Shown piece by piece: positions 9,912 through 28,186 of a stretch of 64,000 bases of DNA (position 1 is its first letter; each line of letters opens with the position of its first letter). The translations under genes and the position numbers were made by a program. Location: NCBI RefSeq assembly GCF_026020075.1, contig NZ_CP102772.1, forward strand, positions 3,012,501 through 3,076,500, given 5' to 3'. This stretch comes from Bosea sp. NBC_00550. Its GTDB lineage: Bacteria; Pseudomonadota; Alphaproteobacteria; Rhizobiales; Beijerinckiaceae. A model generated the notes under the pieces. That model was not told the DNA's origin, ran no database searches, and saw nothing but the letters and a program-made list of their open reading frames with translations.

Positions 9912-10132
9912 CTCGCGCGACTGAAGCACACAAACCACGCCGTTTGAAGCGGTGTCGTGAACCCATGGAAATCCCGAATTGGATTCACGCGTTGTTTACC
10001 ACGATGCTGCCTTATACAACGGCATGGTTCCAACTGCGCGGACGGGTGAGTACCCAGCCGTTCCAGACCCGGCGGCCATCCGGGCGCCAGACGCATCGAA
10101 ACACAGGCCTTAGGGACGGACAGAACAGGCCC

Positions 10133-10492
10133 ATGACGAAGATATTGCTCGCGGAAGACGACAACGACATGCGTCGCTTCCTGGTCAAGGCCCTGCAGAA
10201 TGCGGGCTACGACGTCGCTTCCTTCGATAACGGCCTCTCGGCCTATAACCGGCTCCGCGAGGAGCCGTTCGAGCTGCTGTTGACCGACATCGTCATGCCC
10301 GAGATGGACGGCATCGAGCTGGCACGCCGCGCCACCGAGCTCGACCCCGACATCAAGGTGATGTTCATCACCGGCTTCGCGGCCGTCGCGCTCAACCCCG
10401 ATTCGCAGACGCCGAAGGATGCGAAGGTGCTCTCCAAGCCGTTCCACCTGCGCGAGCTCGTCAACGAAGTCGAGAAGCTGTTGGCCGCCTGA
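10133..10492 (+). CDS. cpdR: Cell-cycle response regulator CpdR
   Basis: A single-domain receiver (119 aa). In alphaproteobacteria unphosphorylated CpdR primes the ClpXP protease to degrade cell-cycle regulators such as PdeA and, indirectly, CtrA. Acidic pocket DD at 9-10, phospho-acceptor Asp52 in LLLTDIVMPEMDG, the T in FITGFA and Lys in LSKPFH are all intact; there is no output domain. The N-terminus MTKILLAEDDNDMRRFL is the rhizobial CpdR signature, so I use the ATG at 10133 even though the frame is open further upstream. It is followed by a long palindromic element and tRNA-Val. Confidence 0.93.
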   Translation: MTKILLAEDDNDMRRFLVKALQNAGYDVASFDNGLSAYNRLREEPFELLLTDIVMPEMDGIELARRATELDPDIKVMFITGFAAVALNPDSQTPKDAKVLSKPFHLRELVNEVEKLLAA

Positions 10493-10504
10493 GAGCCAAT
10501 TTGA

Positions 10505-10620
10505 AAATTCGTCAGGGCGTGTCGAGAAAGGGGTTTTTCGAGCATCGGAGCGCAGCGTACGTTTGTACGTGAGCACCGAAACGCAGAAAAACATCGTTCG
10601 CAGACCGCCATGACGAATTT
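10505..10620. repeat. 116-bp REP-like palindromic element
   Basis: The ends are perfect inverted copies (AAATTCGTCA at 10505-10514, TGACGAATTT at 10611-10620). The two halves remain imperfectly complementary to the centre, where CGTAC-GTTT-GTACG forms the apex. It contains a short GTTTTTCGAGC / GCAGAAAAAC pair, so a transcript could fold into one long hairpin. It lies between cpdR and the tRNA and may act as the cpdR transcript end. Probably one of a dispersed family, which cannot be checked here. Confidence 0.7.
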
Positions 10621-10758
10621 GCAAACGGGCTCGGAGAATTTATGCGGCAAACGCCTTGCAAGCCGCGAAGCGAGCCGCTATAGCCCCCCTCACTCGCAGC
10701 GTGATCGCGGCCCGCACGGCCCCGGACACGCTTCCGGAAGCTGCTTCTGGCGGCAAAC

Positions 10759-10833
<75 letters not shown>

Positions 10834-10862
10834 TTTGATGCCCTTGAAATACAGGGACAGAA

Positions 10863-10887
10863 GGCCGCCTCACCGGGCGGCCTTTTT
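10863..10887 (+). terminator. Rho-independent terminator after tRNA-Val
   Basis: 7-bp stem GGCCGCC/GGCGGCC with a short loop, followed by five T. It ends the tRNA transcript and lies just before the convergent LysR gene. Confidence 0.85.
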
Positions 10888-10913
10888 GCTTTCCGCAGCA
10901 CCCGCATCGCGCT

Positions 10914-11822
10914 TCAGTTCTCCTCGCTCGGCGCCAGCTGTCGTACGAAGCGGCGCAGCAGCGTCTCGAAGGCCGAGAGCGCCGGCGAGACCGAGCGCCC
11001 GCTCGGCCGGATCATGACGATGTCCCGGGCGATCGAGGGTTCTGCCAATGGCCGCGCTATGACCGTCGCCGGCGCGACGGCCCTCGCATAGGTCGGGAGC
11101 ACCGCGATCCCAAGCCCGGCCTCGACGAACGCCAGCGCCGTGGTGATCTGCGCGACCTCATGGGCCGGCTTCAGGGTGATTTCGGCGCTTTCATAGCCGA
11201 CCTCGACCAGCAGGCGGATGCCGCTGTCTCGAGTCAGCGTGATCAGGGGCTCGTCGGCGAGATCGCGCCAGAGCACCGATTCCCGCTCCGCGAAGCCACT
11301 GCCCCGCGCGCAGAACAGCATCAGGCTGTCGCGGGCGAGCGGCGTGCGCTCGATATTATCCTCCAGCGCGGAGAAGGTCCCGACGCCGCAATCCGCCTTC
11401 CCGAATCGCACCGCTTCGACGACGAGATCGTTGCGGGCATCGATGATCACGACCTGAAGGCCGGGGTATTTCTCCTGCAGCGCGACGATCGTCGGCGGCA
11501 TGATCACGGCCGCGAGCAGCGGCGGCACCGCGACCACGATGCGCCCGCGCCGGCGCTCCGCCAGCCCGTTGGCGTTCTGCACGGCCGTGTCGAGGTCCTG
11601 CACGATCTTCAGCGCCGCGCCGTGGAATTCGCGCCCGCCCTCGGTCAGCTCGACGCGCCGGGTCGTGCGATCGAGCACGCGGATGCCCAGCTCGCGCTCG
11701 AGGTCGCGCACGAGCTGGGAAAGCGCCGGCTGGGCCATGTGCAGCCGTTCCGCCGCCTTGGTAAAGGTGCCTTGCTCGGTCACGGCGAGGAAGGCCTGAA
11801 TCTGGCGCAGCGTGATCGCCAT
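10914..11822 (-). CDS. LysR-family transcriptional regulator (catabolic cluster)
   Basis: A 302-aa LysR-type regulator. Residues 1-60 form the winged HTH (RQIQAFLAVTEQGTFTKAAERLHMAQPALSQ is the DNA-reading part); residues 90-295 form the periplasmic-binding-protein-like effector domain that senses a small molecule. It is divergent from the lyase gene at 12049 with a 226-bp gap holding a 17-bp palindrome, the standard arrangement for a LysR activator of the neighbouring catabolic genes. The effector is unknown; a pathway substrate or intermediate is likely. Confidence 0.93.
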   Translation of the reverse strand: MAITLRQIQAFLAVTEQGTFTKAAERLHMAQPALSQLVRDLERELGIRVLDRTTRRVELTEGGREFHGAALKIVQDLDTAVQNANGLAERRRGRIVVAVPPLLAAVIMPPTIVALQEKYPGLQVVIIDARNDLVVEAVRFGKADCGVGTFSALEDNIERTPLARDSLMLFCARGSGFAERESVLWRDLADEPLITLTRDSGIRLLVEVGYESAEITLKPAHEVAQITTALAFVEAGLGIAVLPTYARAVAPATVIARPLAEPSIARDIVMIRPSGRSVSPALSAFETLLRRFVRQLAPSEEN

Positions 11823-11856
11823 GCGGTTCCCGGATTTATAAGGACAGGTTCCGAAT

Positions 11857-11873
11857 TCATACGAATGTTATGA
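11857..11873. promoter_or_regulatory. Candidate LysR operator
   Basis: An inverted repeat TCATA-N7-TATGA in the gap between the divergent LysR and lyase genes, 35 bp upstream of the regulator's start. It fits the general partially dyadic T-N11-A style of LysR boxes. An overlapping ATTC/GAAT pair (11855-11866) gives further symmetry. Confidence 0.5.
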
Positions 11874-12048
11874 GTTGCCGTATACCCCGCCTGTCATGCC
11901 ATCATCCCTCATCGCCCCAATCGCATACGGGGCGACGCCTGGGCGGGAACGCAAAGGATGGCGGCATGGGGGATGGACGGCGGGGACGCCGCCTCACCGA
12001 AGGCCGCCCTCCCGCCCGGATCGTTCCGGAATGCGAGGGTGAGGGTCG

Positions 12049-13029
12049 ATGAAATACGCGAAGAAGGACGCCAAGGCCTATGCCCGCGCCCATATGAAGG
12101 GCATCTGGGCGGCCGCGCTCACCCCCTTCACCCCCTCGCTCGCGATCGACGAGGACGGCTTCCGGGAGAACATCCGTCACTGGCTCGACGATCTGAAGAT
12201 CGACGGGCTGTTCATCGCCGGCAAGCAGGGCGAGTTCTTCTCGATGTCGATCGAGGAGCGCAAGCGCAACTTCGAGCTGGCGGTGGAGGCATCGGCCGGG
12301 CGCGGCCAGACCATCATGTCCTGCTCGGACCAGAACATGGACGTGGTGATCGACCTCGCGAAACACGCCCAGAAGGTCGGCGCCGACTACATCGTCGTGC
12401 ACGCGCCCATCCTGCATTTCTTCAAGGCGCAGGACGAGACGGTCTACGAGTACTACCGGACCATTGCCGAGAAGGTCGATATCGGCATCGCGCTCTGGAG
12501 CCATCCGGACTCGGGCTATCTGCTCTCGCCGCAGCTCTGCAATCGCCTCGCCGACATCGAGAACGTCGTCGCGATCAAGTACAGCGTGCCGCGCCCGATG
12601 TATGCCGAGCTCACCCGGATGGCCGGCGACCGCATCCTGGTCAGCACCGCCTCCGAGGAGGAATGGCTCGACAACATCCTCGAGCTCGGCTGGCAGCTCT
12701 ATCTCTGCTCCTCGCCGCCCTACCTGATCCAGACGGCGAACGATTTGCGCATGCGCGAATACACCGATCTCGCCTTCCGCGGCGAGGCCGACAAGGCGCG
12801 CGCGCTGCGCGACAGCCTGAACCCGGTGCGCGAGGCGCTGCGCGGCACACGGCCCGCCGAGAAGCCCCATTCCCACCAGAAATACTGGCAGGAGCTGCTC
12901 GGCCAGGTCGGCGGGCGGGTCCGGCCGCCGATGCTGGAGCTGACCGAGGCCGAGAAGGCCGCGACGCGCGCCGCCTTCGAAAGCTGCGGCCTGAAGCCCG
13001 GCCGCGCCCCGCTCGCCAAGGCCAGCTGA
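12049..13029 (+). CDS. Dihydrodipicolinate synthase (DapA)/NAL family lyase or aldolase
   Basis: A class I aldolase-fold enzyme (326 aa) of the DHDPS/N-acetylneuraminate lyase superfamily, which joins or splits carbon chains through a pyruvate- or keto-acid Schiff base. The Schiff-base lysine is in VVAIKYS (near residue 180); GKQGEFFSMS replaces the usual GTTGE loop, and the DapA catalytic Tyr region reads HAPILHFF, so it is not a true DapA. First gene downstream of the divergent LysR, followed after 35 bp by the 3-hydroxyanthranilate dioxygenase; GAGGGTGAGGG precedes the ATG. A role in cleaving or hydrating a ring-fission product is an inference. Confidence 0.85.
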   Translation: MKYAKKDAKAYARAHMKGIWAAALTPFTPSLAIDEDGFRENIRHWLDDLKIDGLFIAGKQGEFFSMSIEERKRNFELAVEASAGRGQTIMSCSDQNMDVVIDLAKHAQKVGADYIVVHAPILHFFKAQDETVYEYYRTIAEKVDIGIALWSHPDSGYLLSPQLCNRLADIENVVAIKYSVPRPMYAELTRMAGDRILVSTASEEEWLDNILELGWQLYLCSSPPYLIQTANDLRMREYTDLAFRGEADKARALRDSLNPVREALRGTRPAEKPHSHQKYWQELLGQVGGRVRPPMLELTEAEKAATRAAFESCGLKPGRAPLAKAS

Positions 13030-13040
13030 ACAAGACCTGA

Positions 13041-13616
<576 letters not shown>

Positions 13617-13729
13617 CGAGCGTCGCGCCGCCCCCGGGCGGCGCGCCTACGGACCGCGCAGGGCGCGGTGACGCAAAGGCGCCGTGCTGGAATGGATCGG
13701 CAGGTAGCTTGGAACGACCGGAGTTCGGA

Positions 13730-13994
13730 ATGAAACTGCGCGGAGCGCTGCTCGGCATCGCGTTATCCCTGGTGACCGCCGGCGGTGCCCCAGCGCAAGG
13801 CGATGCTGAAGGCGGACTTCGCATCGACCCGCGGCACCTTCAAGTTCGGCGCGAACCAGCATCCGGTGCAGGACTGGTGGGCCATGGTCGTCGACAAGGA
13901 CGAGGCCGGAAAGCCGAGCCTGCGCACCCGGACCAAGTTGCTGAGCGAACAGGGGGATCCCTTCGCCGCGCAGTGCAAGCTGCGGGTGCCGTGA
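13730..13994 (+). pseudogene. Relic of a branched-chain-type substrate-binding protein gene
   Basis: The first part encodes a signal peptide (MKLRGALLGIALSLVTAGG, from 13730). From about 13800, in another frame, the DNA encodes the last 60 residues of a LivJ-type binding protein (KADFASTRGTFKFGANQHPV through the end at 13994). These closely match the C-terminus of the intact binding protein encoded at 15006-16184 (FKFGKNQHPIQNWYALKV). The roughly 1 kb coding the middle is gone and the frame is broken, so this looks like an internally deleted duplicate. A short peptide could still be made from 13785. Confidence 0.85.
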
Positions 13995-13995
13995 C

Positions 13996-14970
13996 ATGGC
14001 CGAGGTGACGCGCCTGCGACTTCCCGAGCTCTCTGCCACGGCTGACCTGCTGAGCATCGGTTCGACCCGAATCTATCGGGTCGCCGACATCGAGGGCATC
14101 GGTTGGCCGGCGAAGGCGATGTTCGGCTCGCTGACGCAGGCCGATCTGGCGGCGGCCGCCGCGCGATTGCCCGAAAGCGCCGTCGATGCCGCGAACGCGA
14201 CTCTCGATCTCAGCTTCAACAGCTATGTGATCGCCCGGCCGGGCCTGACCGTCCTGATCGATGCGGGCATCGGCAATGACAAGGAACGGCCCGATCGCCC
14301 GGCATGGCATCGCCGCTCCGGGCGCTTCCTCGACGTCCTGACGGCGCTGGGCTTTCCTCCCGACAGCATCGATCTCGTCGTCAATACCCATCTCCACGCC
14401 GATCATGTCGGGTGGAACACGGTCCATGACGGGCAGCGCTGGCGGCCGACATTCGCGAGGGCGCGCTATGTGGCCCCCCGCGCCGAGCTCGATCACTGGT
14501 CGGCGCTCCACGACGCCGACCCGTCCGGCGCCACCCTGCACGGAGCCTTCGCGGACAGCGTCCTGCCGCTGGTCGAGGCGGGCGTCCTCACTGCCGTCGA
14601 GACGCCGGCGGAGATCGCGCCCGGCTTGTCTCTCGAGCCCGCGCCCGGCCACTCGCCGGGAATGACCATCGTCAGACTGAAGACGGAGGAGAACGATGTT
14701 TGTTTTCTGGCCGATCTCATCCATCATCCGATCCAGCTGATCATTTCCGGGCTGAACTCGAATTTCTGCGGAAACCCCTCCGAAGCGCTGTCGATGCGTG
14801 ACCGCATCCTGCGTCGTTGCGCGGGGGAACATGTGATAGTCGCGCCCTATCATTTTGCTCCGCCGTCCTTCGGCAGGGTCGAAGAGACGGGAAGCGAGGT
14901 ATCGTTTCGTTACCTTCCGGTATCGCGGGATCAGGTTGTCCTCACCGTGGACAAGCCGGGGAAATTATGA
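13996..14970 (+). CDS. Metallo-beta-lactamase-fold hydrolase
   Basis: A 324-aa MBL-fold protein of the lactonase/organophosphorus-hydrolase-like group. The dinuclear zinc motif THLHADHVGW lies near residue 133; a second metal His is in GHSPGM (near 217); FLADLIHHP supplies the bridging Asp and the last His. No signal peptide. Its start comes directly after the relic gene and its stop overlaps (ATGA) a possible start of the binding protein, so it is cotranscribed with the transporter. In this setting it may hydrolyse a lactone or amide formed during ring-fission metabolism; the substrate cannot be read from the sequence. Confidence 0.88.
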   Translation: MAEVTRLRLPELSATADLLSIGSTRIYRVADIEGIGWPAKAMFGSLTQADLAAAAARLPESAVDAANATLDLSFNSYVIARPGLTVLIDAGIGNDKERPDRPAWHRRSGRFLDVLTALGFPPDSIDLVVNTHLHADHVGWNTVHDGQRWRPTFARARYVAPRAELDHWSALHDADPSGATLHGAFADSVLPLVEAGVLTAVETPAEIAPGLSLEPAPGHSPGMTIVRLKTEENDVCFLADLIHHPIQLIISGLNSNFCGNPSEALSMRDRILRRCAGEHVIVAPYHFAPPSFGRVEETGSEVSFRYLPVSRDQVVLTVDKPGKL

Positions 14971-15005
14971 ATTCAACGACCAATAAACAGGGGAACCAGA
15001 CAACC

Positions 15006-16184
15006 ATGCTCAAACACACGAAGACAGGACTGGCCGCCTCGTTCGGCCTGGCATCGCTGCTGCTGGCCTCCACCGCCTTCGCCCAGCAGCCGGTCAAGAT
15101 CGGCATGATCACCACGCTTTCGGGTCCCGGCGGCTATCTCGGCCAGGACATCCGCGACGCGTTCAAGCTCGCCATCGACATGGAGGGCGGCAAGCTCGGC
15201 GGCGTGCCGGTCGAGCTCGTCGTCGAGGATGACGCGCTGAAGCCCGGCCAGGGCAAGCAGATCGCCGAGAAGATGCTGAAGACCGACGGCATCAAGATCA
15301 TGACCGGCATCGTCTTCTCGAACGTCGCTGGCGCGACCGTGCCCGACATCGTCGATTCCGGCGCGCTCTATGTCAGCCCCAACGCAGCGCCCTCGAACTT
15401 CGCCGGCAAGGAGTGCAACGAGAACTACTTCGTCGTCGCCTGGCAGAACGACAGCCTGCATGAGAGCGCCGGGCAATACGCCACCAATCTCGGCTACAAG
15501 AAGGCCTTCATCCTCGCCCCGAACTACCAGGCCGGCAAGGATGCGCTCACCGGCTTCAAGCGCCTGTTCAAGGGCGAGGTCGTCGGCGAGGTCTATACCC
15601 GCCTCGACCAGACCGACTTCGCACCCGAGATGGCGCAGATCCGTTCGGCCAATCCCGACGTCGTCTTCCAGTTCCATCCGGGCGGCCTCGGCATCGCCTT
15701 CCTGCGCCAGTACCAGCAGGCCGGCCTGCTCGGTAAGGTGCCGATGGTGCTGGCCGAGCCCTCGCTCGATGCCACCACGCTGAAGGCCGTCGGCGACGCC
15801 GCCGTCGGGCTCAACGTCACCGCCCACTGGAACACCGACTTCGACAACGCGGCGAACAAGAAGTTCGTGGAAGCCTGGACCAAGGCCTACAACCGCGTGC
15901 CGACCTATTATGCCAGCCAGGGCTACGACACCGCGCTCGCCATCGCCTCGGCGCTGAAGGCGACGAGCGGCAAGACCGATGTCGCGGCGCTCCGCACTGC
16001 CCTCGCCAAGGCCGATTTCCAGTCGGTGCGCGGCGCCTTCAAGTTCGGCAAGAACCAGCATCCGATCCAGAACTGGTACGCGCTTAAGGTCGAGAAGGGT
16101 GCGGACGGCACGCCGATCCTGAAGACGGTCGACAAGGTCCTGAGCGACCATGGCGACGTCTACGCCAAAGACTGCAAGCTCTGA
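15006..16184 (+). CDS. ABC transporter substrate-binding protein, branched-chain amino acid/aromatic type
   Basis: A periplasmic binding protein of the LivJ/type-1 fold (392 aa) that captures the substrate for the importer encoded just downstream. Signal peptide about residues 1-23 (ending ASTAFA, before QQPVKIG). VKIGMITTLSGPGGYLGQD and the GIVFSNVAGATVPD region are typical of members that bind aromatic acids or amides rather than leucine. I prefer the ATG at 15006, preceded by GGGGAA; an in-frame ATG at 14967 overlaps the previous stop and would put 13 polar residues ahead of the signal peptide. A 154-bp palindrome follows the stop. Confidence 0.92.
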   Translation: MLKHTKTGLAASFGLASLLLASTAFAQQPVKIGMITTLSGPGGYLGQDIRDAFKLAIDMEGGKLGGVPVELVVEDDALKPGQGKQIAEKMLKTDGIKIMTGIVFSNVAGATVPDIVDSGALYVSPNAAPSNFAGKECNENYFVVAWQNDSLHESAGQYATNLGYKKAFILAPNYQAGKDALTGFKRLFKGEVVGEVYTRLDQTDFAPEMAQIRSANPDVVFQFHPGGLGIAFLRQYQQAGLLGKVPMVLAEPSLDATTLKAVGDAAVGLNVTAHWNTDFDNAANKKFVEAWTKAYNRVPTYYASQGYDTALAIASALKATSGKTDVAALRTALAKADFQSVRGAFKFGKNQHPIQNWYALKVEKGADGTPILKTVDKVLSDHGDVYAKDCKL

Positions 16185-16259
16185 GCCACTTTGATCCCCG
16201 GGCCGGCAACACCGCCCCGGGCGTTTAATCCAACTGATGTTGATTTGGCTCGGAACCAC

Positions 16260-16413
16260 GCCGTCATTCCGGGGGAGGCCGAAGGCCTGAGCCCGGAACC
16301 CAGAACCGATGCCGTGCGTCGGAAGCTGTGCCGATAGCTACCCGTCTTTCGCGGGACGCGTGTCGGTTCTGGGTTCCGGGCTCTTCGCTGACGCGAAGCC
16401 CCGGAATGACGGC
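16260..16413. repeat. 154-bp palindromic repeat element inside the transporter operon
   Basis: The outer arms are exact inverted copies (GCCGTCATTCCGGGG at 16260-16274, CCCCGGAATGACGGC at 16399-16413). A second exact inner pair (GAGCCCGGAACCCAGAACCG and its complement) lies within. The RNA would make a long stable hairpin between the binding-protein and permease genes, a position where such structures often protect the upstream mRNA and raise binding-protein output. A related but shorter copy lies at 21784-21880. Confidence 0.85.
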
Positions 16414-16454
16414 AGCGTTTCGATCCGCCCCAGAGGATTCTGGCTTCCACCACA

Positions 16455-17369
16455 ATGACGCTCGTTCTCGAACAATTGCTCAACGGCCTGCAGTTCGGCG
16501 TGATGCTGTTCCTGCTCGCGGCCGGGCTGACGCTGATCTTCGGCATCATGGGCGTGATCAACCTCGCCCATGGCTCGCTTTACATGGTCGGCGCCTATGC
16601 CGCCGCCTTCGCCGCGGCGCAGACCGGCTCGTTCCTGCTCGCGGTGCTGGCCGGCCTCGCCGCCGCTGCGATCATCGGCATGGTGATGGAGGTGGTCGTG
16701 CTGCGCCGGCTCTATGCGCGGGACCATCTCGACCAGGTGCTGGCGACATTCGCGCTGATCCTGATCTTCAACCAGAGCGTGACGATCCTGTTCGGCCGCC
16801 AGCCGCTCTTCGTCTCGGTGTCCCCGGCGCTCAACGGCTCGGTCCAGCTCCTGCCCGGCCTGATCTATCCGGTCTATCGGCTGGCCATCATCGCGGTCGG
16901 CCTCCTCGTCGCGCTCGGGCTCTACCTGCTGATCAACCGCACCCGCGTCGGCATGCTCGTGCGCGCCGGCGCCACTCATCGCGAGATGGTCCGCGCGCTA
17001 GGTGTCGATATCCGCCTGCTCTACACCGCCGTCTTCGGGCTCGGCGCCCTGCTCGCCGGCCTCGCCGGGCTGATGGCGGGGCCGATCCTGGCCGTGCAGG
17101 TCGGCATGGGCGAGCAGATCCTGATCATGACCTTCGTGGTGGTGGTGATCGGCGGCGTCGGCTCGATCCGCGGCGCCTTCTTCGGCGCGCTGATCGTCGG
17201 CCTCGTCGACACCTCGCTGCGCGCTTTCATGCCGGGCCTGCTGCGCCATGTCATGGCCGGCTCGGAAGCCGACGCGCTCGGCGCCGGCCTCGCCTCAATG
17301 GGCATCTACCTGCTCATGGCGATCGTGCTGCTCGTGCGGCCCAAGGGACTGTTCCCCGCCCATGTCTGA
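16455..17369 (+). CDS. livH: Branched-chain-type ABC transporter permease, LivH
   Basis: An inner-membrane permease (304 aa, about eight membrane segments) forming half of the channel of the importer. MTLVLEQLLNGLQFGVMLFLLAAGLTLIFG is the typical LivH start; GVINLAHGSLYMVGAY and the C-terminal EXX loop region (VVVVIGGVGSIRGAFFGA) that docks to the ATPases are present. Starts 42 bp after the palindrome and overlaps livM by 8 bp. Confidence 0.95.
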   Translation: MTLVLEQLLNGLQFGVMLFLLAAGLTLIFGIMGVINLAHGSLYMVGAYAAAFAAAQTGSFLLAVLAGLAAAAIIGMVMEVVVLRRLYARDHLDQVLATFALILIFNQSVTILFGRQPLFVSVSPALNGSVQLLPGLIYPVYRLAIIAVGLLVALGLYLLINRTRVGMLVRAGATHREMVRALGVDIRLLYTAVFGLGALLAGLAGLMAGPILAVQVGMGEQILIMTFVVVVIGGVGSIRGAFFGALIVGLVDTSLRAFMPGLLRHVMAGSEADALGAGLASMGIYLLMAIVLLVRPKGLFPAHV

Positions 17370-18387
17370 CGACGCCCTCACCCGCGCGCATGCCGCGACG
17401 CCCGCACTGGGCCGCATCATCGCGCTGCTCGCGCTCACTGTTGCGCTGATCGCCCTGCCCTTCGTCCTCAAGGCGATCGGCCAGCCGGCGCTGGTGCCGC
17501 TGGCGACCCGCGTCCTGATCTACGCCATCGCCGCCGCCAGCCTCAATCTGGCGCTCGGCTTCGGCGGGATGGTGTCCTTCGGCCACGCCGCCTTCTTCGG
17601 CATCGGCGGCTATGTCGTCGGCATCCTCTACCGAACGATGACGGACGACGCCCTCTTCCTCGGCTTCATCCCCGGCACGGACCAGCTCCTCATCACGCTG
17701 CCCGCCGCGCTCCTCGTCGCCGGCCTGTTCGCCTGCCTCATCGGCGCGCTCAGCTTACGCACCAGCGGCGTGCAGTTCATCATGATCACGCTCGCCTTCG
17801 CGCAGATGCTGTTCTTCCTCTTCGTCTCGCTCAAGGCCTATGGCGGCGATGACGGCATGACGATCCGCCGCCGCAATGCGCTCTTCGAACTCAACACCCG
17901 CGACGACACGACCTTCTATTTCATCTGCCTCGTCGTCGCCGCCCTGGTCTTCCTGGCGCTCTGGCGCATCGTCGGCTCGCGCTTCGGCATGGTGCTGGCA
18001 GGCATCCGCCAGAACGAGCGGCGCATGGCCGCGATCGGCATCGCGCCCTACCGCTACAAGCTCGCGGCCTTCGTCATCTCCGGCATGGGCGCCGGCCTCG
18101 CAGGCGCGCTGATGGCGAACTACCTGCGCTTCGTCAGCCCGGACATGCTGCACTGGACCAAATCCGGCGAGCTGATGATCATGGTCATCCTCGGCGGTGT
18201 CGGCACGCTGCTCGGGCCTCTGCTGGGCGCCGCCGCCCTCGTCATCCTCGAAACCGTGCTGACGAGCTGGACCGAGCATTGGCAGCTCGTGCTTGGGCCG
18301 ATCCTGCTCCTCGTCGTGCTCTTCACCCAGGGCGGGCTGACCGGGCTCTTCAACCGCCTCGGCCTCGGCGGCAGGAGCGCGCCATGA
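17362..18387 (+). CDS. livM: Branched-chain-type ABC transporter permease, LivM
   Basis: The second permease of the importer (341 aa, about ten membrane segments). LNLALGFGGMVSFGHAAFFGIGGY and MVILGGVGTLLGPLLGAAALV are the family landmarks. The ATG at 17362 lies inside the end of livH and gives the hydrophilic N-terminus MSDDALTRAHAATP; longer versions would overlap livH too far. livG starts with an ATGA overlap. Confidence 0.95.
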   Translation: MSDDALTRAHAATPALGRIIALLALTVALIALPFVLKAIGQPALVPLATRVLIYAIAAASLNLALGFGGMVSFGHAAFFGIGGYVVGILYRTMTDDALFLGFIPGTDQLLITLPAALLVAGLFACLIGALSLRTSGVQFIMITLAFAQMLFFLFVSLKAYGGDDGMTIRRRNALFELNTRDDTTFYFICLVVAALVFLALWRIVGSRFGMVLAGIRQNERRMAAIGIAPYRYKLAAFVISGMGAGLAGALMANYLRFVSPDMLHWTKSGELMIMVILGGVGTLLGPLLGAAALVILETVLTSWTEHWQLVLGPILLLVVLFTQGGLTGLFNRLGLGGRSAP

Positions 18388-19151
18388 CCGACATTACCAT
18401 GACGCGACCGCTCCTCTCGGTACGCGGCCTGCGCAAGCGCTTCGGCGGGCTCGTCGCCACCGACGGCGTCGATCTCGACGTACGCGACGGCGAGATCCAT
18501 GCGCTGATCGGCCCGAACGGCGCCGGCAAGACCACGCTGATCACCCAGCTCTTCGGCGAATTGACCCAGGACGAGGGCGCGATCCTGCTGGAGGGCGAGG
18601 AGATCGGCGCCCTGCCGACGTCGCAGCGCGTCGGGCGCGGCCTCGCCCGCACCTTCCAGATCAACCAGCTCCTGCCCGACTTCACGATGCTCGACAATGT
18701 CGCGCTCGCCGTGCAGGCGCATGAGGGGCACAGCTTTCGCTTTTTCGCCAATGCGCGCCGCGACGAGGGCCTGCGCGGCCGCGCCCGCCAGCATCTCGCC
18801 ACGGCAGGCCTGAGCCATCGCGCCGAGGTCAAGGTCGCCGATCTCTCCCATGGAGAGCAGAAGCAGCTCGAATTCGCCATAGCGCTCGCCTGCGAGCCGC
18901 GCCTGCTGCTGCTCGACGAGCCGATGGCCGGCCTCGGCCATGCCGAGAGCGAGCAGATGGTCACGATGCTCTCCGCGCTGAAGGGCCGCGTCACCATGCT
19001 CCTGGTCGAGCACGACATGGATGCGGTCTTCGCACTGGCCGACCGCATCTCCGTTCTCGTCTATGGTCGCGTCATCGCGACCGGCACCGCCAACGAGATC
19101 CGCGACAACCCGGAAGTGCGCATCGCCTATCTCGGCGAGGGAGACGCCTGA
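18384..19151 (+). CDS. livG: ABC transporter ATP-binding protein, LivG
   Basis: A cytosolic ATPase subunit (255 aa). Walker A GPNGAGKTT near residue 40, signature LSHGEQKQLE near 155, Walker B LLLLDEPMAGL and switch histidine LVEHDMD are intact. The LSHGE form is the LivG/UrtD-type signature. ATGA overlap with livM and one-base overlap with livF show a tightly coupled operon. Confidence 0.95.
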   Translation: MTDITMTRPLLSVRGLRKRFGGLVATDGVDLDVRDGEIHALIGPNGAGKTTLITQLFGELTQDEGAILLEGEEIGALPTSQRVGRGLARTFQINQLLPDFTMLDNVALAVQAHEGHSFRFFANARRDEGLRGRARQHLATAGLSHRAEVKVADLSHGEQKQLEFAIALACEPRLLLLDEPMAGLGHAESEQMVTMLSALKGRVTMLLVEHDMDAVFALADRISVLVYGRVIATGTANEIRDNPEVRIAYLGEGDA

Positions 19152-19852
19152 TGCTGAGCGTGCGCAGCCTGCAATCCGCCTATGGCCGGAGCCAGGTGCT
19201 GTTCGATGTCGGCCTCGACATCGCCGAGGGCGAGGTTGTGACGCTGCTCGGCCGCAACGGCATGGGCAAGACCACCACGGTGCGCTCGATCATGGGCCTG
19301 CTCGCGCCGAAGGGCGGCGATATCAGCTTCGAAGGGCGCGCGGTGGCCGGCATCGCGCCGGAGAAGATCGCCCGCTGCGGCATCGGCCTCGTGCCCGAGG
19401 GGCGGCAGGTCTTCCCGACGCTGAGCGTGCGCGAAAACCTCGTCGCCACAGCCTCGAACCGGCTGAAACGCTCCTCGCCCTGGACGTTGGAGCGGGTCTA
19501 CGCCCTCTTCCCTCGCCTGCAGGAACGCGCCAGCCAGTCCGCCCGCACGCTGTCGGGCGGCGAGCAGCAGATGCTCGCGGTCGGCCGCGCGCTGATGACC
19601 AACCCGAAGCTCCTGATCCTCGACGAGGCGACCGAGGGGCTGGCGCCGGTGATCCGGGCCGAGATCTGGGGCTGCATCGAAGCGCTGAAGGCGCAGGGCC
19701 AGTCGATCCTGCTGATCGACAAGAACATCAATGTGCTCAAGCGCATCGCCGACAGGCACTACATCATCGAGAAGGGCCGCACGGTCTGGTCGGGCTCAAG
19801 CAACGACCTCGCCGCCAATGCCGAGCTGGTGCATCGCTATGTCGGAGTCTGA
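19151..19852 (+). CDS. livF: ABC transporter ATP-binding protein, LivF
   Basis: The second ATPase of the importer (233 aa). Walker A GRNGMGKTT, GLVPEGRQVFPTLSVRENL, signature LSGGEQQML and Walker B LLILDEATEGLAP are the LivF set. It completes a five-component importer with the genes at 15006-19151. The next gene starts 14 bp inside its 3' end. Confidence 0.95.
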   Translation: MLSVRSLQSAYGRSQVLFDVGLDIAEGEVVTLLGRNGMGKTTTVRSIMGLLAPKGGDISFEGRAVAGIAPEKIARCGIGLVPEGRQVFPTLSVRENLVATASNRLKRSSPWTLERVYALFPRLQERASQSARTLSGGEQQMLAVGRALMTNPKLLILDEATEGLAPVIRAEIWGCIEALKAQGQSILLIDKNINVLKRIADRHYIIEKGRTVWSGSSNDLAANAELVHRYVGV

Positions 19853-20951
19853 GATCGTCGCCCACAGCGCTGAGGCCGATCCGGTCGAGGCCTTGCGGGA
19901 CGCGCTGAGCGACATCCTGGCCGGGCTGATCGCCGCAGGCTGCGGCCCGCATCATCTCACCGGGATGATCTGGCAGACCGACTGTCCCGAAGCCTTCCAC
20001 CTGTCGCGCCACACCATCGAGCTCGCCTGGCGCGAGGTCTTCGCCGGCTTCCGCCCAACGATCCGGCTTCAACCCAAGGCAGAGCCCGGCCTGACCATCC
20101 GCGCCCGGCACCTCGCTCCGCAGCCGCTGCCCGAGACGATCGTCGAGGGCTACACGCTGCGCGATCTCGGCCGGCAATACAGCCCGCGCCTGCAGGCCGA
20201 CATGAAGGCGTTGTTCCGGCAGTGGAGCCGCGACGGCGAGGCCTTCCGCGCCAATCACGAGGGCGTCGACCTCGCCTATGGCCCCGGCCGTTTCGAGACC
20301 CTCGACCTCTATCGTCCCGCCGGGACGAGCCCTGCGCCGATCTTCGTCTTCATCCATGGCGGTTACTGGCAGGCCTCGGACAAGGTCCAGCACGCCCAGT
20401 TCGCACAGGGGCTGCTCGATGCGGGGTACGCCGTCGCCATGCCGAATTACGGGCTCGCGCCGGACACGCCGCTGGAAGCGAGCATCGCCCAGAGCGTGGC
20501 GGCGCTGAACTTCCTCGTTGATGAAGCCGATGCGCTCGGCCTCGATGCCAACAGCCTGCACATCTGCGGCCATTCCGCCGGCGCGCATCTTGCAGCCATG
20601 GCGCTTTGCGCGGCTGAAGCCCCGTCGATCGCCTCGGTCCTGCTGCTCTCCGGCCTCTTCGACCTGAAGCCGCTCGGCCGTCTTCCTCTCGGCCGCCTGC
20701 TCGGCCTCGACGATGTGGCGCGTGCGACGCGGCTCAGCCCCATCGTCCAGTCTCGCCCGCAAACAGCGCGGATCGCTTTCGCCGTCGGCGAAGGCGAGAG
20801 CGACGCCTTCAAGGCGCAATCGGCCGCTCTCGCCAAAACATGGCAGGCGCCGGCACCGCTGATCTGCCCGGGCCACCATTTCAGCATGCTCGAAGGGTTG
20901 AACGGCGGCGCGCTGCTCGACCTCGCGCTCCGCACGGCCAAGGGCTCATGA
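19839..20951 (+). CDS. Partial RidA-like domain fused to an arylformamidase-like alpha/beta hydrolase
   Basis: 370 aa with two regions. Residues 15-95 (ILAGLIAAGCGPHHLTGMIW, LAWREVFAGFRPTIRLQP, GLTIRARHLAP) read like the C-terminal two thirds of a RidA/YjgF protein, the enamine/imine deaminase family that includes 2-aminomuconate deaminase; the first beta strands appear missing. Residues 105-370 are an alpha/beta hydrolase of the arylformamidase type: LGRQYSPRL, oxyanion motif HGGYW at 173-177, nucleophile Ser246 in GHSAGAH and a late His in PGHHFSML. The fold suggests hydrolysis of an N-formyl or similar amide. Next to the 3-hydroxyanthranilate dioxygenase, a part in kynurenine/aminomuconate-like chemistry is plausible. 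Starts inside livF, ends with an ATGA overlap to nadX. Confidence 0.78.
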   Translation: MSESEIVAHSAEADPVEALRDALSDILAGLIAAGCGPHHLTGMIWQTDCPEAFHLSRHTIELAWREVFAGFRPTIRLQPKAEPGLTIRARHLAPQPLPETIVEGYTLRDLGRQYSPRLQADMKALFRQWSRDGEAFRANHEGVDLAYGPGRFETLDLYRPAGTSPAPIFVFIHGGYWQASDKVQHAQFAQGLLDAGYAVAMPNYGLAPDTPLEASIAQSVAALNFLVDEADALGLDANSLHICGHSAGAHLAAMALCAAEAPSIASVLLLSGLFDLKPLGRLPLGRLLGLDDVARATRLSPIVQSRPQTARIAFAVGEGESDAFKAQSAALAKTWQAPAPLICPGHHFSMLEGLNGGALLDLALRTAKGS

Positions 20952-21775
20952 CGCACCACCCTCGCAAGCCGCTGCGTTTTGCTTTGATCGGCTGGGGCGC
21001 CATCAACCGCCGCATCGTCGAATTGCTGGCGGAACGCGATGGTGGCACCGATTTCGTCGTCGCCGCGATAGGTGTCCGCAACGCCGCTGGAGCTGGTGAC
21101 GTTCCGGCCGGTGCAATGGTCATCACGACGCCCGACGCACTCGAAGGCCTCGATCTCGATCTCGATCTCGTCGTCGAGGCGGCCGGGCGCGAGTCGGTCG
21201 GCATCTGGGGCGAGGCGGCGCTCCGATCCGCGCCCGCCTTCGCCGTCGCATCGACCAGCGCCTTCTGCGATACCGCGCTGCTCGACCGCTTGGTCGCCAC
21301 GGCGGAGGCCCATGGCAGCCAGATCCTGATCCCGCCCGGCGCCCTCGCGGGCATCGACGCCATCGCCGCCGCCTCCGTGCTGCCGCTCGACGAAGTGGTC
21401 CATCGCATCGTCAAGCCGCCATCCGCATGGCGCGGCACACCGGTCGAAAGCCTCGTCGCGCTCGACGAACTGACCGAAGCGACATCCTTCTTCATCGGCA
21501 CCGCCCGCGAAGCCGCCTCCCGCTTCCCCCAGAACGCCAATGTCGCGGTGATCTCGGCGCTGGCGGGCCTCGGGCTCGATCGCACCCGCGTCGAGCTCGT
21601 CGCCGACCCGGCCGCCGGTGGCAACGGCCACCAGCTCAGCGCGCGCGGCGACTTCGGGAAGCTGGAGATCGCCATAGAGAACCGACCGCTGGCCTCGAAC
21701 CGGAAATCCTCCGAAATGACGGCGCTGGGGCTGGTCAGGCTTATCGAGAATCGCGTGCGACCGCTCGTGCGGTAG
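20948..21775 (+). CDS. nadX: L-aspartate dehydrogenase (NadX-like)
   Basis: An NAD(P)-dependent dehydrogenase (275 aa) of the aspartate dehydrogenase family, which interconverts L-aspartate and iminoaspartate/oxaloacetate plus ammonia. The Rossmann motif is FALIGWGAINRRI; VVEAAGRESV, LIPPGALAGIDAIAAAS and a C-terminal GNGHQLSARGDFGKLEI with NRKSSEMTALG are typical. In NAD synthesis NadX supplies iminoaspartate for NadA, but no nadA or nadC is present. Within this catabolic operon it more likely handles a related imine or amino acid; that is an inference. Its stop is followed by a palindromic repeat that closes the operon. Confidence 0.88.
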   Translation: MTHHPRKPLRFALIGWGAINRRIVELLAERDGGTDFVVAAIGVRNAAGAGDVPAGAMVITTPDALEGLDLDLDLVVEAAGRESVGIWGEAALRSAPAFAVASTSAFCDTALLDRLVATAEAHGSQILIPPGALAGIDAIAAASVLPLDEVVHRIVKPPSAWRGTPVESLVALDELTEATSFFIGTAREAASRFPQNANVAVISALAGLGLDRTRVELVADPAAGGNGHQLSARGDFGKLEIAIENRPLASNRKSSEMTALGLVRLIENRVRPLVR

Positions 21776-21783
21776 ACGCACTT

Positions 21784-21880
21784 GCCGTCATGCCCTCGGC
21801 TTGACCCGGGCATCTCGGAAACCAGCGCCTTCTCGTCGTGAGATTCCCGGGTCGAAGCTTTGCTTCGCCCCGGAATGACG
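21784..21880. repeat. Palindromic repeat related to the element at 16260
   Basis: An imperfect inverted repeat: GCCGTCATGCCCTCGGCTTG and CCCGGGCATCT face AGATTCCCGGGTCGAAGC and CCCCGGAATGACG. It shares the outer CGTCAT...CCGGAATGACG arms with the 154-bp element, so both belong to one dispersed family. It follows the nadX stop and may serve as the operon's 3' end. Confidence 0.75.
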
Positions 21881-22034
21881 CTCGCAGCAAACCCACATTA
21901 TTCATAATCAGATCAATCTGAATTTATCTGATTTATCCGACTGGATCACAGAATGAGCCCGCACCTATGGTCTCGTTGAGACTAGCGGAAACGACCCCGA
22001 CAGACCGCTGAACACGCCGCCAGCCGAGGCTTTC
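21881..22034 (+). promoter_or_regulatory. AT-rich promoter region of the aldehyde dehydrogenase gene with inverted repeats
   Basis: A short AT-rich stretch in otherwise GC-rich DNA. AATCAGA (21906-21912) and TCTGATT (21927-21933) form an inverted repeat, and CAGAT-CA-ATCTG (21909-21920) a smaller one inside it. This suggests a separately controlled promoter for the downstream gene. Box positions were not assigned. Confidence 0.45.
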
Positions 22035-23468
22035 ATGACGATTTATCCCGACCTCAAGCTCTATATCGGCGGCGCCTGGCGGAAGACGGCCGAGGAGCAG
22101 CCGGTTCTGAACCCGGCCGACGAAAGCGTCATCGGTGCGGTCCCCCTCGCCTCCCATGCCGATCTCGACGATGCCCTCGCGGCCGCCGCCGAGGGCTTCA
22201 AGGTCTGGAGCCGGATGGCGCCGCGCATCCGCGCCGAGATCATGCTGAAGGCTGCCGCGCTGATGCGCGAGCGTGTCGAGGAGATCGCCTTCGCGATCAC
22301 GCTGGAGCACGGCAAGCCGCTGGCGCAGGCGCGGCTTGAGGTGGTCCGCGGCTGCGAGTTCTTCGAATGGGATGCGGCCGAGGGTCAGCGCGCCTATGGC
22401 CGCGTCATACCGAGCGAGCCCGGCATCCGCTATGTCGTGATGCATCAGCCGGTCGGCACGGTGGCGGCCTTCTCGCCCTGGAACTTCCCGATGAGCCAGC
22501 CCTGCCGCAAGATCGCGGGCGCGCTCGCGGCGGGCTGCTCGATCATCATCAAGGCGGCGGAGGAGACGCCGGCCGGCGCCCTCCACATCGCCCGCGCCTT
22601 GCACGATGCCGGCGTGCCGCCCGGCGTTTTCAACCTCGTCTTCGGCGTGCCGGCCAAGATCTCGAGCTATCTGATCCCGCAGGCGCAGACCCGCCTCGTC
22701 GCCTTCACCGGCTCGACCGCCGTCGGCAAGCACCTCTCGGAGCTGGCCGCGCGCCACATGACGCCCGTGCTGATGGAGCTTGGCGGCCACGCCCCCGTCA
22801 TCGTCTGCGACGATGTCGACCCCGTCGCCGCCGGCCATCTCTCAGCCACCCGCAAGGTCCGCAATGCCGGCCAGGTCTGCACCTCGCCGACGCGCTTCTT
22901 CGTGCAGGAATCGATCTACGAGCGCTTCACCAAGGCCTTCGTCGAGAAGGCGCAGGCGGTGACGGTCGGCAACGGCCTCGACTCGGAGACGCAGATGGGC
23001 CCGGTCGCCAACCACCGCCGCATCGAGGCGCTGGAAACCCTCGCCGCCGATGCCCGCGCTCGCGGCGCCCGCGTGCTCACCGGCGGCGAGCGGCTCGGCA
23101 ATCGCGGCTATTTCTTCCCGCCGACGGTGATCGCCGATCTGCCGGACGATGCCCGTGCCATGCGCGAAGAGCCTTTCGGCCCGATGGCGCTGATCAACCC
23201 GGTGCGTTCGGTCGAGGAAGCCCTCGAAAAGGCGAACTCGCTGCCCTTCGGCCTCGCCGCCTACGCCTTCACGCATTCCGCCGCGCGCGCCGACCAGATC
23301 GCCGAAGGCATCGAGGCCGGCAACGTCTCGATCAACACGCTGGAAGCCTCCGTCGCGGAGGTGCCCTTCGGCGGCGTCAAGGATAGCGGCTATGGCCGCG
23401 AGGGCGGGGCCGAGGGCCTGTCGCACTACATGACGATCAAGACGCTTTCGCATCGCATGGCCATCTAG
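22035..23468 (+). CDS. NAD(P)-dependent aldehyde dehydrogenase, succinate-semialdehyde dehydrogenase-like
   Basis: A 477-aa ALDH-superfamily enzyme that oxidises a semialdehyde to the acid. Oxyanion Asn150 in FSPWNFPMS, Glu249 in LMELGGHAP and catalytic Cys282 in NAGQVCTSP are intact; cofactor-site residues IIKAAEETPA and GSTAVGK fit. The sequence type (GQVCTSPTRFFVQESIYERF) is closest to succinate/alpha-ketoglutarate semialdehyde dehydrogenases. Beside a 3-hydroxyanthranilate dioxygenase it could oxidise aminomuconate semialdehyde or a later semialdehyde. It has its own leader after the palindromic repeat, so it may be a separate transcription unit. Confidence 0.9.
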   Translation: MTIYPDLKLYIGGAWRKTAEEQPVLNPADESVIGAVPLASHADLDDALAAAAEGFKVWSRMAPRIRAEIMLKAAALMRERVEEIAFAITLEHGKPLAQARLEVVRGCEFFEWDAAEGQRAYGRVIPSEPGIRYVVMHQPVGTVAAFSPWNFPMSQPCRKIAGALAAGCSIIIKAAEETPAGALHIARALHDAGVPPGVFNLVFGVPAKISSYLIPQAQTRLVAFTGSTAVGKHLSELAARHMTPVLMELGGHAPVIVCDDVDPVAAGHLSATRKVRNAGQVCTSPTRFFVQESIYERFTKAFVEKAQAVTVGNGLDSETQMGPVANHRRIEALETLAADARARGARVLTGGERLGNRGYFFPPTVIADLPDDARAMREEPFGPMALINPVRSVEEALEKANSLPFGLAAYAFTHSAARADQIAEGIEAGNVSINTLEASVAEVPFGGVKDSGYGREGGAEGLSHYMTIKTLSHRMAI

Positions 23469-23575
23469 CTGCAATCTCCGCCCCTTTACTGGCAGGATTG
23501 CCATAGGGACGAAATATTGCGCATGGACGGGGTGAAAGGCTGGCGGCCTCGGGTTTTCGCGGCATTGTGGCCGCG

Positions 23576-25024
23576 ATGATTCGCTCCGCAACCCTGCTGA
23601 TGCTGGCGTTGAGTCTTGGCGCCTGTGCCGTGGGGCCGGACTACACGCCGCCCACGCTCGACATGCCGCAGCGCTGGAGCGCGACGACGAGCGGGCCGAA
23701 GGCGCCGAAGCCATCCGAATGGTGGCGCAGCCTCCGCGACCCCACGCTCAATGCGCTGATCGATCAGGCCATCGCCGGCAATCTCGATGTCGCGCAAGCC
23801 AAGGCCCGCATCCGCGATGCCCGTGCCGCGCGCGAGCAGGCGGTCGGCGCGCTCTTCCCGCAGGTCGATGGCGGCGCCACCGCCAGCCGCTCGCGCTCGG
23901 CTCTCGTGACCCGCAACAGCTTCCGCGCCGGCTTCGACGCGTCTTGGGAGATCGACCTGTTCGGCGCCCGCGACCGCGCCGTCGAGGCCGCGACATACGG
24001 CACGGACGCCGCCTTCGACGACTTGGACTCCGTCATGCTGACGCTGATCGGCGATGTCGCCTCGACCTATGTCGAGTCGCGCGGCCTGCAGGCGCGGATC
24101 GCGCTCGCCCGCAGCACGGCGCGGACCCAGCGCGAGACCGAGGCGCTCACTCGCACCCGTTTTCGGGCCGGCGACATCTCCGCCATCGACACCTCCCGCG
24201 CCACCGCCCAGGCCGCGAGCACGGAATCGCAGATTCCCCTGCTGGAAACCTCGCTCGCCCAGAACCAGCATCGGCTTGCCGTGCTGACGGGCCGCCCGCC
24301 GGCCGCGATGGCTCCTTACTTCGCCCGCCCTGCCGCGGTGCCCGCGACGCCGGCACCGCCGCGCGCCGGCATTCCCGCCGATGTGCTGCGCCGCCGCCCG
24401 GACGTCCGCTCGGCCGAGCGCCTGCTCGCACAGGCGACCGCGCGCATCGGCCAGGCGGAGGCCAACCGCTACCCGTCGGTCTCGCTGACCGGCAGCATCT
24501 CGACCTCGGCGCTGAAGCTCGGCGACCTCGCCAAGAACAGCGCCATCGGCTGGTCGATCGGCCCCAGCCTCAGCGTGCCGATCTTCAACGGCGGCGAGCT
24601 GGCGGCGGCGGTCGATGCGGCCAGGGCCCAGCGAGACCGACAGGACGCGGCGTTCAGGCTCGCCGTGCTCACCGCCTTGCAGGATGTCGAGAACGGGCTG
24701 GTCGGGCTGCGGCAGGAAAGGCTCCGGCTCGGCAGCCTGTCGGAAGCAGCCCGCGCTTCGGGCGAGGCGGCGCGGTTGTCCCGTGCGCTCTATGCCTCCG
24801 GCAATGTCAGCTTCCTCGATGTGCTCGAAGCGCAGCGCTCGGAATATGGCGCCGAGGAATCGCTGATCCAGAGTAGGGTCGCGCTCGTCACCCAGTTCAT
24901 CGCTCTCAACAAGGCGCTGGGCGGCGGCTGGCTCAGGCCCGTCGCGGTCTCCGTGCCCGCCGTGATCGACGGCGAAACCGGGCCGCGCCCGCGCCTCATT
25001 CCCATAGAGGAACCGCAACCATGA
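23576..25024 (+). CDS. Outer-membrane efflux lipoprotein, TolC/NodT family
   Basis: The outer-membrane channel (482 aa) of a tripartite exporter. A lipoprotein signal with lipobox LGAC (Cys near residue 16) is followed by AVGPDYTPP, the NodT-family mature start. Two OEP repeats follow with long helices; DASWEIDLFGARDR and ASGNVSFLDVLEAQRS are typical. An in-frame GTG at 23567 would add three residues. Its stop overlaps the macA start (ATGA), so the three exporter genes form one operon. Confidence 0.92.
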   Translation: MIRSATLLMLALSLGACAVGPDYTPPTLDMPQRWSATTSGPKAPKPSEWWRSLRDPTLNALIDQAIAGNLDVAQAKARIRDARAAREQAVGALFPQVDGGATASRSRSALVTRNSFRAGFDASWEIDLFGARDRAVEAATYGTDAAFDDLDSVMLTLIGDVASTYVESRGLQARIALARSTARTQRETEALTRTRFRAGDISAIDTSRATAQAASTESQIPLLETSLAQNQHRLAVLTGRPPAAMAPYFARPAAVPATPAPPRAGIPADVLRRRPDVRSAERLLAQATARIGQAEANRYPSVSLTGSISTSALKLGDLAKNSAIGWSIGPSLSVPIFNGGELAAAVDAARAQRDRQDAAFRLAVLTALQDVENGLVGLRQERLRLGSLSEAARASGEAARLSRALYASGNVSFLDVLEAQRSEYGAEESLIQSRVALVTQFIALNKALGGGWLRPVAVSVPAVIDGETGPRPRLIPIEEPQP

Positions 25025-26232: not shown

Positions 26233-26233
26233 G

Positions 26234-28186
<1,953 letters not shown>

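Follow-up and report, generated by a model that had tools for sequence, protein, structure and literature searches.

A gene cluster in Bosea that pairs 3-hydroxyanthranilate dioxygenase with a DHDPS-family lyase and a NadX-like dehydrogenase: candidate route for 3-hydroxyanthranilate breakdown without ACMS decarboxylase

Tryptophan/kynurenine metabolism branches at 3-hydroxyanthranilate (3HAA). Enzymes of the 3-hydroxyanthranilate 3,4-dioxygenase (3HAO) family open its ring to give 2-amino-3-carboxymuconate semialdehyde (ACMS), which is usually either decarboxylated by ACMS decarboxylase (ACMSD) or closes spontaneously to quinolinate, which is neurotoxic and a precursor of NAD. The ACMSD-type meta-cleavage pathway of bacteria is of the nbaCDEF type. 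Here we describe a gene cluster of Bosea sp. NBC_00550, located at positions 10914-23468 of a 64,000-nucleotide stretch of contig NZ_CP102772.1 (the whole stretch is called the window). Its core set comprises a LysR regulator, a DHDPS-family lyase, 3HAO, a NadX-like aspartate dehydrogenase, an aldehyde dehydrogenase (ALDH) and an importer. The ACMSD-type pathway, described also for a fungal cluster (PMC7842363), has the same start with 3HAO and likewise uses an aldehyde dehydrogenase. The Bosea cluster, however, contains neither ACMSD nor a stand-alone RidA and carries the DHDPS-family lyase and NadX instead; its ALDH is SSADH/KGSADH-like, or is represented in other loci by a molybdenum-enzyme subunit (Mo-subunit).

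The auxin-degradation (iad) loci of Variovorax and Bradyrhizobium were also considered, prompted by Bradyrhizobium and by isatin/anthranilate chemistry. They too belong to plant-associated Proteobacteria and deal with indole/anthranilate chemistry, but neither a Rieske oxygenase (IadDE) nor MarR was found among the scanned cluster genes. The main texts of the iad papers mention no DHDPS, 3HAA or aspartate dehydrogenase. As these key enzyme names are absent from the main texts, the iad pathway was rejected.

Co-occurrence of the lyase with 3HAO and distribution of ACMSD

Among 397 genomes of the order, 30 encode an orthologue of the lyase (E ≤ 1e-60, one match each), 35 encode 3HAO above the family cut-off, and 28 encode both (Fisher p 4e-34). 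In 23 of these 28 genomes, no more than 10 kb separates the two genes on one contig; in genome G256 the distance is 13 kb. An ACMSD orthologue was found in none of the 30 lyase genomes, and an ACMSD query gave no match at the 117 lyase loci defined below. It is present, at 68-100% identity, in four of the seven genomes with 3HAO only (G013, G098, G224 and G047). In these four, the genes for RidA, 3HAO and ACMSD adjoin (loci L183, L184, L186 and L188), and the ACMSD of L184 matches the solved enzyme with an E of about 1e-138. G114, G185 and G171 make up the remaining 3HAO-only genomes. The 3HAO contig of G114 (71% complete) carries the end of a Mo-subunit-like gene, NadX and 3HAO, so that the lyase may lie off that contig. 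In a tblastn search, the RidA of L184 matches only 2 of the 117 lyase loci (L040 and L078, at 32%), and the window cluster has no stand-alone RidA.

To compare neighbourhoods, 117 loci were assembled, 29 from genomes, 80 from genome contigs and eight from plasmids. The contigs were the best 80 of 321 stretches that encode a relative of the lyase at a loose limit; among these 80, the closest named relatives are Bosea. Merging six loci with identical lyases (e.g., L070 with L032) left 111; the lyase of a Bosea genome (G366) is likewise identical to that of the Bosea lupini record L070. In the 83 well-covered loci, with at least 8 kb of flank on each side, 3HAO was found 75 times, LysR 73 times (at least 40% identity), and NadX, LivJ (at least 45%) and LivH (at least 50%) 63 times each. 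A formamidase-like hydrolase is present at 56 of them, ALDH at 50 and the Mo-subunit at 24; the MBL-fold hydrolase (11), TRAP components (7) and kynureninase (6) are rarer. The lyase and 3HAO distances are correlated over 99 loci (Mantel r 0.62; none of 999 permutations was as high). The neighbourhood recurs far beyond chance.

From this genome comparison, the lyase very probably takes the place of ACMSD in 3HAA breakdown. A first reading of the window, made from sequence only and here called the sequence-only reading, had pointed out that ACMSD and a stand-alone deaminase are missing from the cluster. This is correct, and the genome as a whole has no ACMSD orthologue, only a distant homologue elsewhere. 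The comparison also favours two proposals of that reading, namely an alternative route from 3HAO without these two enzymes, and a lyase that would act on the ring-fission product in the decarboxylase's place. Several observations weigh against this assignment. The Fisher p-values take no account of shared ancestry or of the cluster being transferred as one unit. In 4 of the 28 genomes (G037, G133, G206 and G262) lyase and 3HAO lie on different contigs; the 3HAO of G133 (L192) has neighbours that, read by eye, do not look catabolic, and that of G037 stands beside a RidA-like gene (L191, C24:43066-44099), as in canonical clusters, although without ACMSD. Two genomes have the lyase without 3HAO above the cut-off, G061 (L051, 99% complete, lyase identity 68%) and G204 (L060, 74% complete, 57%), and 3HAO is absent from the span of 8 of the 83 well-covered loci. 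Finally, ACMSD-like matches at E ≤ 1e-20 occur in 7 of the 28 genomes that encode both enzymes, and the Bosea homologue, L199 (C1:3604707-3605705, 32% identity to bacterial ACMSD), could act in trans.

An ordinary pathway completed by this homologue, with the lyase acting elsewhere, e.g., on a precursor, is nevertheless improbable. The best PDB match of L199 is indeed human ACMSD (E 1.9e-55), and ACMSD-like matches reach E ≤ 1e-20 in 8 of the 30 lyase genomes, with 28-33% identity. However, 21 of the 28 genomes with both lyase and 3HAO lack any match at this threshold, and the neighbours of L199, read by eye, are GntR-like and TctC-like genes and not 3HAO. A separate observation concerns genome G171, in which neither ACMSD (at E ≤ 1e-20) nor the lyase (at E ≤ 1e-60) gives a match. 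There, 3HAO lies beside genes that look, by eye, like those for a two-component flavin monooxygenase, a flavin reductase and RidA (L189, contig C124), perhaps yet another arrangement around 3HAO.

Of 364 genomes sampled from the phylum, 10 carry a lyase orthologue (E 1e-80), all of the same class. The orthologue is also found in 47 plasmid records, of which 16 are predicted to be conjugative, and annotated plasmids with the same gene sets come from Chelatococcus, Rhizobium, Paroceanicella, Phaeobacter, Ensifer, Ruegeria and Agrobacterium. Another plasmid with the same gene set is labelled Roseateles, in a record marked unverified. This distribution bears on a possible role in NAD synthesis. 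Both 3HAO and NadX can in principle lead to quinolinate, and the sequence-only reading had been intrigued by two such routes in one cluster. The patchy, partly plasmid-borne occurrence and the company of importers, an ALDH or Mo-enzyme and LysR speak against such a role, and no other NAD gene was seen in the cluster (nadA and nadC were not searched genome-wide). We therefore regard a function of 3HAO and NadX in feeding quinolinate to NAD as extremely unlikely.

Candidate reactions of the lyase, NadX and the aldehyde-oxidizing enzymes

The 3HAO gene (13065-13616, plus strand) is the only match to this family in the Bosea genome. Its product passes the cut-offs of NF009763 (282 bits, cut-off 220) and TIGR03037 (268 bits, cut-off 146) and aligns with the solved enzyme 1yfu with an E of 1.4e-78. 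The stretches holding what we take to be the iron ligands and the substrate-binding arginines are identical or nearly so in this alignment.

The lyase gene (12049-13029, plus strand) encodes a TIM-barrel protein of the DHDPS/NAL superfamily (PF00701); its best-matching solved members of the superfamily share about 24% identity with it. Its Schiff-base lysine, K177, aligns with that of the genome's own DapA and is invariant in an alignment of 40 lyases, from which minus-strand loci and two loci with an internal stop in the match span were excluded. The protein does not match the DapA pattern: the TIGR00674 score is 90 bits against a cut-off of 206, and the DapA positions T44/T45, Y133 and R138 are occupied by K59/Q60, W150 and S155. 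Loss of the tyrosine is not unique to the lyase, since it is also absent from two other paralogues of the genome (L225 and L227; rows L221 and L223 were left out of the alignment with DapA).

The hydratase-aldolases NahE and PhdJ belong to the same superfamily and use a Schiff-base lysine. The 2-imino-3-ene tautomer of ACMS resembles the 2-oxo-3-ene acids that such enzymes cleave, and the substrate tautomer of the Bosea lyase would likewise be of this type. The Bosea protein differs from NahE and PhdJ in having K, Q and W at the T, T and Y positions of DapA, and its proposed substrate is a dicarboxylate enamine. ACMS can be drawn as 2-aminofumarate bearing a 3-oxopropenyl group. We propose that the cluster would import and degrade 3HAA, or a compound readily converted to it, and that 3HAO would open the ring to ACMS. 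The lyase would then form a Schiff base on Lys177, add water and split ACMS by retro-aldol cleavage into malondialdehyde and iminosuccinate (or oxaloacetate plus ammonia), for which the balance would be C7H7NO5 + H2O = C4H5NO4 + C3H4O2.

Iminosuccinate, a tautomer of aminofumarate, is a substrate of NadX enzymes. The cluster NadX (20948-21775, plus strand; PF01958, 98 bits), which belongs to the L-aspartate dehydrogenase family, scores 231 bits with the subfamily model NF009828 (cut-off 177) and falls under the cut-offs of the equivalog models TIGR03855 and NF009827. It matches the solved enzyme 2dc1 (E 7.7e-26) and shares with it the FPxNxNV stretch and the N-x-H stretch, presumably the catalytic histidine motif. 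Together with NADH it would reduce iminosuccinate to L-aspartate, as a nitrogen-salvage step of an aromatic pathway and not as the NadX of NAD synthesis. The family is present in 26 of the 30 lyase genomes and 82 of the 367 others (p 2e-12). Of the 28 lyase genomes that also encode 3HAO, 26 have it; none of the four ACMSD genomes does. The earlier idea that NadX handles an imino- or amino-acid product is thus favoured by the genome comparison, although the reaction itself stays a prediction.

The cluster ALDH (22035-23468, plus strand; PF00171), an NAD-dependent semialdehyde dehydrogenase, has its nearest solved relatives in KGSADH (5x5t, 481 bits) and SSADH (5vbf, 477 bits). Over the 111 loci, ALDH (at least 60% identity) was found at 59 and the Mo-subunit (at least 40%) at 38; none had both and 14 had neither (p 2e-18). 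Adding a further, truncated ALDH query (SSADH2) changed these counts to 61, 38, 0 and 12. Where present, the Mo-subunit gene always immediately precedes the lyase gene (38 of 38 loci); the ALDH has this position in 35 of 59. Both Nitratireductor and Gemmobacter include ALDH and Mo-subunit versions, and seven extra loci from the phylum sample (four Mo-subunit, two ALDH, one neither) are consistent with the alternation. Hence, ALDH and Mo-subunit are observed to replace each other, and their common substrate is an inference: two unrelated aldehyde-oxidizing enzymes that interchange should share an aldehyde, without indicating which one. The Mo-subunit is of the molybdopterin-binding xanthine/aldehyde oxidase type; its best NCBIfam match, glyceraldehyde dehydrogenase alpha (605 bits, under the cut-off of 790), fits an aldehyde substrate. 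In our scheme, ALDH with NAD, or the Mo-enzyme in other strains, would oxidize malondialdehyde to malonate semialdehyde, and the NadX and ALDH steps would balance NADH. The aldehyde dehydrogenase ALDH2 has been described to convert malondialdehyde to malonic semialdehyde (PMC8910853).

This scheme is preferred as the simplest one that uses every core enzyme, but the lyase could instead be a Schiff-base decarboxylase that does the job of ACMSD, turning ACMS into 2-aminomuconate or 2-hydroxymuconate semialdehyde. The ALDH or Mo-enzyme would then be a muconate semialdehyde dehydrogenase, and NadX would have its role elsewhere. Replacement of ACMSD fits this equally well. In addition, ACMS is a beta-imino acid, decarboxylation is known from KdgD-type members of the superfamily, and the GEFFS stretch of the lyase is KdgD-like; the KdgD model TIGR03249 does match (1.1e-23), at 84 bits against a cut-off of 374. 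We consider such a decarboxylase unlikely because it leaves the presence of NadX unexplained, because the ALDH scores only 295 bits with the hydroxymuconate semialdehyde dehydrogenase model TIGR03216 (cut-off 693) and lies nearer to KGSADH/SSADH, and because a RidA close to that of L184 is scarce at lyase loci, although in genome G037 a RidA-like gene stands beside the separate 3HAO. Among the best 60 of 166 PDB matches of the ALDH, no entry is named AMSDH.

Splitting of ACMS by the lyase, with reduction by NadX and oxidation by ALDH or the Mo-enzyme, also has points to its disadvantage. A Trp stands in the lyase where DapA has its catalytic Tyr, so that NahE-like chemistry cannot be read from the sequence; no hydratase-aldolase is among the 50 listed rows of the fold comparison, which does not exclude that class. 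NadX is not found at 20 of the 83 well-covered loci and is absent from 4 of the 30 lyase genomes (G012, G061, G089 and G204), and in the close relatives L064 (17578-17881) and L065 (17603-17751) no nadX lies between the hydrolase and ALDH genes. At a threshold of 50%, one locus (L106, Amorphus) has both ALDH and the Mo-subunit. In L141 (8683-10968) and L143 (8686-10965), the Mo-subunit gene is annotated with no FAD or 2Fe-2S subunit gene adjoining it, although the plasmid gene tables are incomplete. Moreover, no gene was identified for the fate of malonate semialdehyde. Gene content, co-occurrence and displacement are what we observe, and we infer all reactions after 3HAO. As a gene system the cluster is strongly supported, and its predicted chemistry moderately so, with about an even chance for the complete set of reactions.

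Hydrolase, kynurenine link and imported substrate

An alpha/beta hydrolase (19842-20951, plus strand; PF20434/PF07859), possibly arylformamidase-like, is encoded upstream of NadX and has an extra N-terminal domain of about 90 residues. Its best NCBIfam match is the HaHSL hormone-sensitive lipase model (161 bits, cut-off 320). Drosophila kynurenine formamidase takes ranks 2-5 in the Foldseek comparison of the structural model (pLDDT 72, poorest in the linker) and is absent from the 50 VIA-align rows, which are mostly lipases and esterases. The sequence-only reading had called this protein a fusion of RidA and arylformamidase. The hydrolase with its additional N-terminus stands, but for the RidA half the sequence gives no support: this domain has no Pfam match even at E ≤ 10, and BLAST against the RidA of L184 gave an E of 0.27. 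Its predicted order of b-a-b-a-b-b, seen within the whole-protein model, is nevertheless RidA-like, and the rows of the whole-protein fold comparison are filled by the hydrolase domain, so that a RidA match could hardly appear.

Import of a kynurenine-like compound, as had been suggested, finds partial agreement. A kynureninase gene is found in 6 of the 111 loci (with annotation in L144, L145 and L147), and the family is present above its cut-off in 17 of the 30 lyase genomes compared with 71 of the 367 others; no match was found in the Bosea genome. Since this genome lacks kynureninase, the strain probably imports 3HAA itself or a formyl or other acyl derivative. The importer type differs among loci, with Liv, TRAP, TTT and other ABC systems. 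Together with the missing kynureninase, this variety would also suit another o-aminophenol carboxylate, such as a substituted or N-acyl 3HAA or a different imported compound, from which 3HAO and the lyase would give different products, and the likeness of the hydrolase to kynurenine formamidase in Foldseek makes an acylated precursor possible. That the true substrate is such a compound is quite unlikely, given that 3HAO is a full-strength member of NF009763/TIGR03037, that kynureninase does occur in some loci, and that the canonical 3HAO-ACMSD clusters L183 and L184 of the same order also carry a Liv importer.

Layout and history of the Bosea copy, and its meaning

All genes named in the sequence-only reading are present with open frames and belong to the families given, as judged from profiles and, for the Liv proteins, from the reading frames and annotated relatives. 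The LysR-family regulator (10914-11822, minus strand; Pfam HTH_1 and LysR_substrate) is divergent from the operon. On the plus strand, the importer comprises the periplasmic binding protein LivJ (15006-16184), the permeases LivH (16455-17369) and LivM (17362-18387) and the ATPases LivG (18384-19151) and LivF (19151-19852). Some start codons in the cluster were our choice. The overlapping starts reported earlier apply only from LivH to NadX, where genes touch or overlap; gaps of 379, 270 and 259 bp follow 3HAO, LivJ and NadX, respectively. In the first of these gaps (13617-13995), an uncharacterized gene was considered and rejected, as the gap holds the C-terminal 63 codons of a second livJ (13794-13982, plus strand). 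This remnant is 65% identical to the livJ that lies between 3HAO and MBL in L100 (E 1e-27) and 55.6% identical to the window's LivJ; a full-length second livJ occupies the same place in L081, L095, L098 and L100. It is followed by a gene for an accessory, lactonase-like MBL-fold hydrolase (13996-14970, plus strand; PF00753, 68 bits), whose best NCBIfam match is the AidB lactonase (78 bits, cut-off 360).

The 3HAO of the window shares 94% identity with its counterpart in Bosea sp. BK604 (L079) and 91% with that of a Rhizobium (L080), but only 75-77% with those of six close relatives (L061, L063, L064, L065, L067 and L068), four of which are named Bosea and two 'Rhizobiales bacterium'. The other cluster proteins are 77-97% identical to those of the same six (NadX 77-82% in the four that have it, the hydrolase 81-85%, the rest 85-97%), and the MBL gene is absent from all of them. 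This pattern indicates that the segment 13065-14970, with 3HAO, livJ remnant and MBL gene, was probably exchanged as a block that left the remnant behind.

Between lysR and the lyase gene, an inverted repeat of the T-N11-A type, TCATA-N7-TATGA (11857-11873), is a candidate LysR site. It is the only exact match in the window and is present in 2 of 87 relatives; a looser form occurs in 10 of 81 regions upstream of a divergent lysR, against a background of 0.6%. Its conservation as a LysR site is weak. A scan for sigma-70 promoters and terminators at 11700-12200 gave nothing, and an Rfam scan of 9000-25000 found tRNA only. The sequence CCCCGGAATGAC recurs without mismatch at three places, one of them on the opposite strand, all within the gaps after LivJ and NadX (16263-16274, 16399-16410 and 21868-21879). 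With up to one mismatch, 0.48 copies are expected in 64 kb, and 1 of 100 shuffles reached three; the copies are possibly REP-like elements. A tRNA-Val(gac) gene (10759-10833), a possible integration site, adjoins one end of the cluster. Directly downstream of the other end, genes read by eye as an outer-membrane factor, a membrane-fusion protein and a MacB-like ABC protein (23567-28186) probably form a separate efflux operon.

Taken together, the gene content noted in the sequence-only reading is confirmed, and its interpretation, partly supported, appears right in outline. The neighbourhood search shows that the cluster recurs among relatives. Among the papers listed in searches of the open-access literature, which leaves out most subscription papers, none was recognizable as a description of this gene set or of an ACMS lyase. 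Tentatively, and with slightly less than even confidence, we propose an undescribed route of four enzymes without decarboxylation that would convert 3HAA via iminosuccinate and malondialdehyde to L-aspartate and malonate semialdehyde. Such a route would keep the nitrogen as an amino acid and would have spread, partly on plasmids, through Alphaproteobacteria. If this is true, cleavage by a lyase would be a third enzymatic fate of ACMS. An orphan DHDPS subfamily would also gain a function, as would the cluster-borne NadX proteins that at present carry the annotation aspartate dehydrogenase, and many genomes would be better annotated, as judged from the 321 stretches that encode a relative of the lyase.

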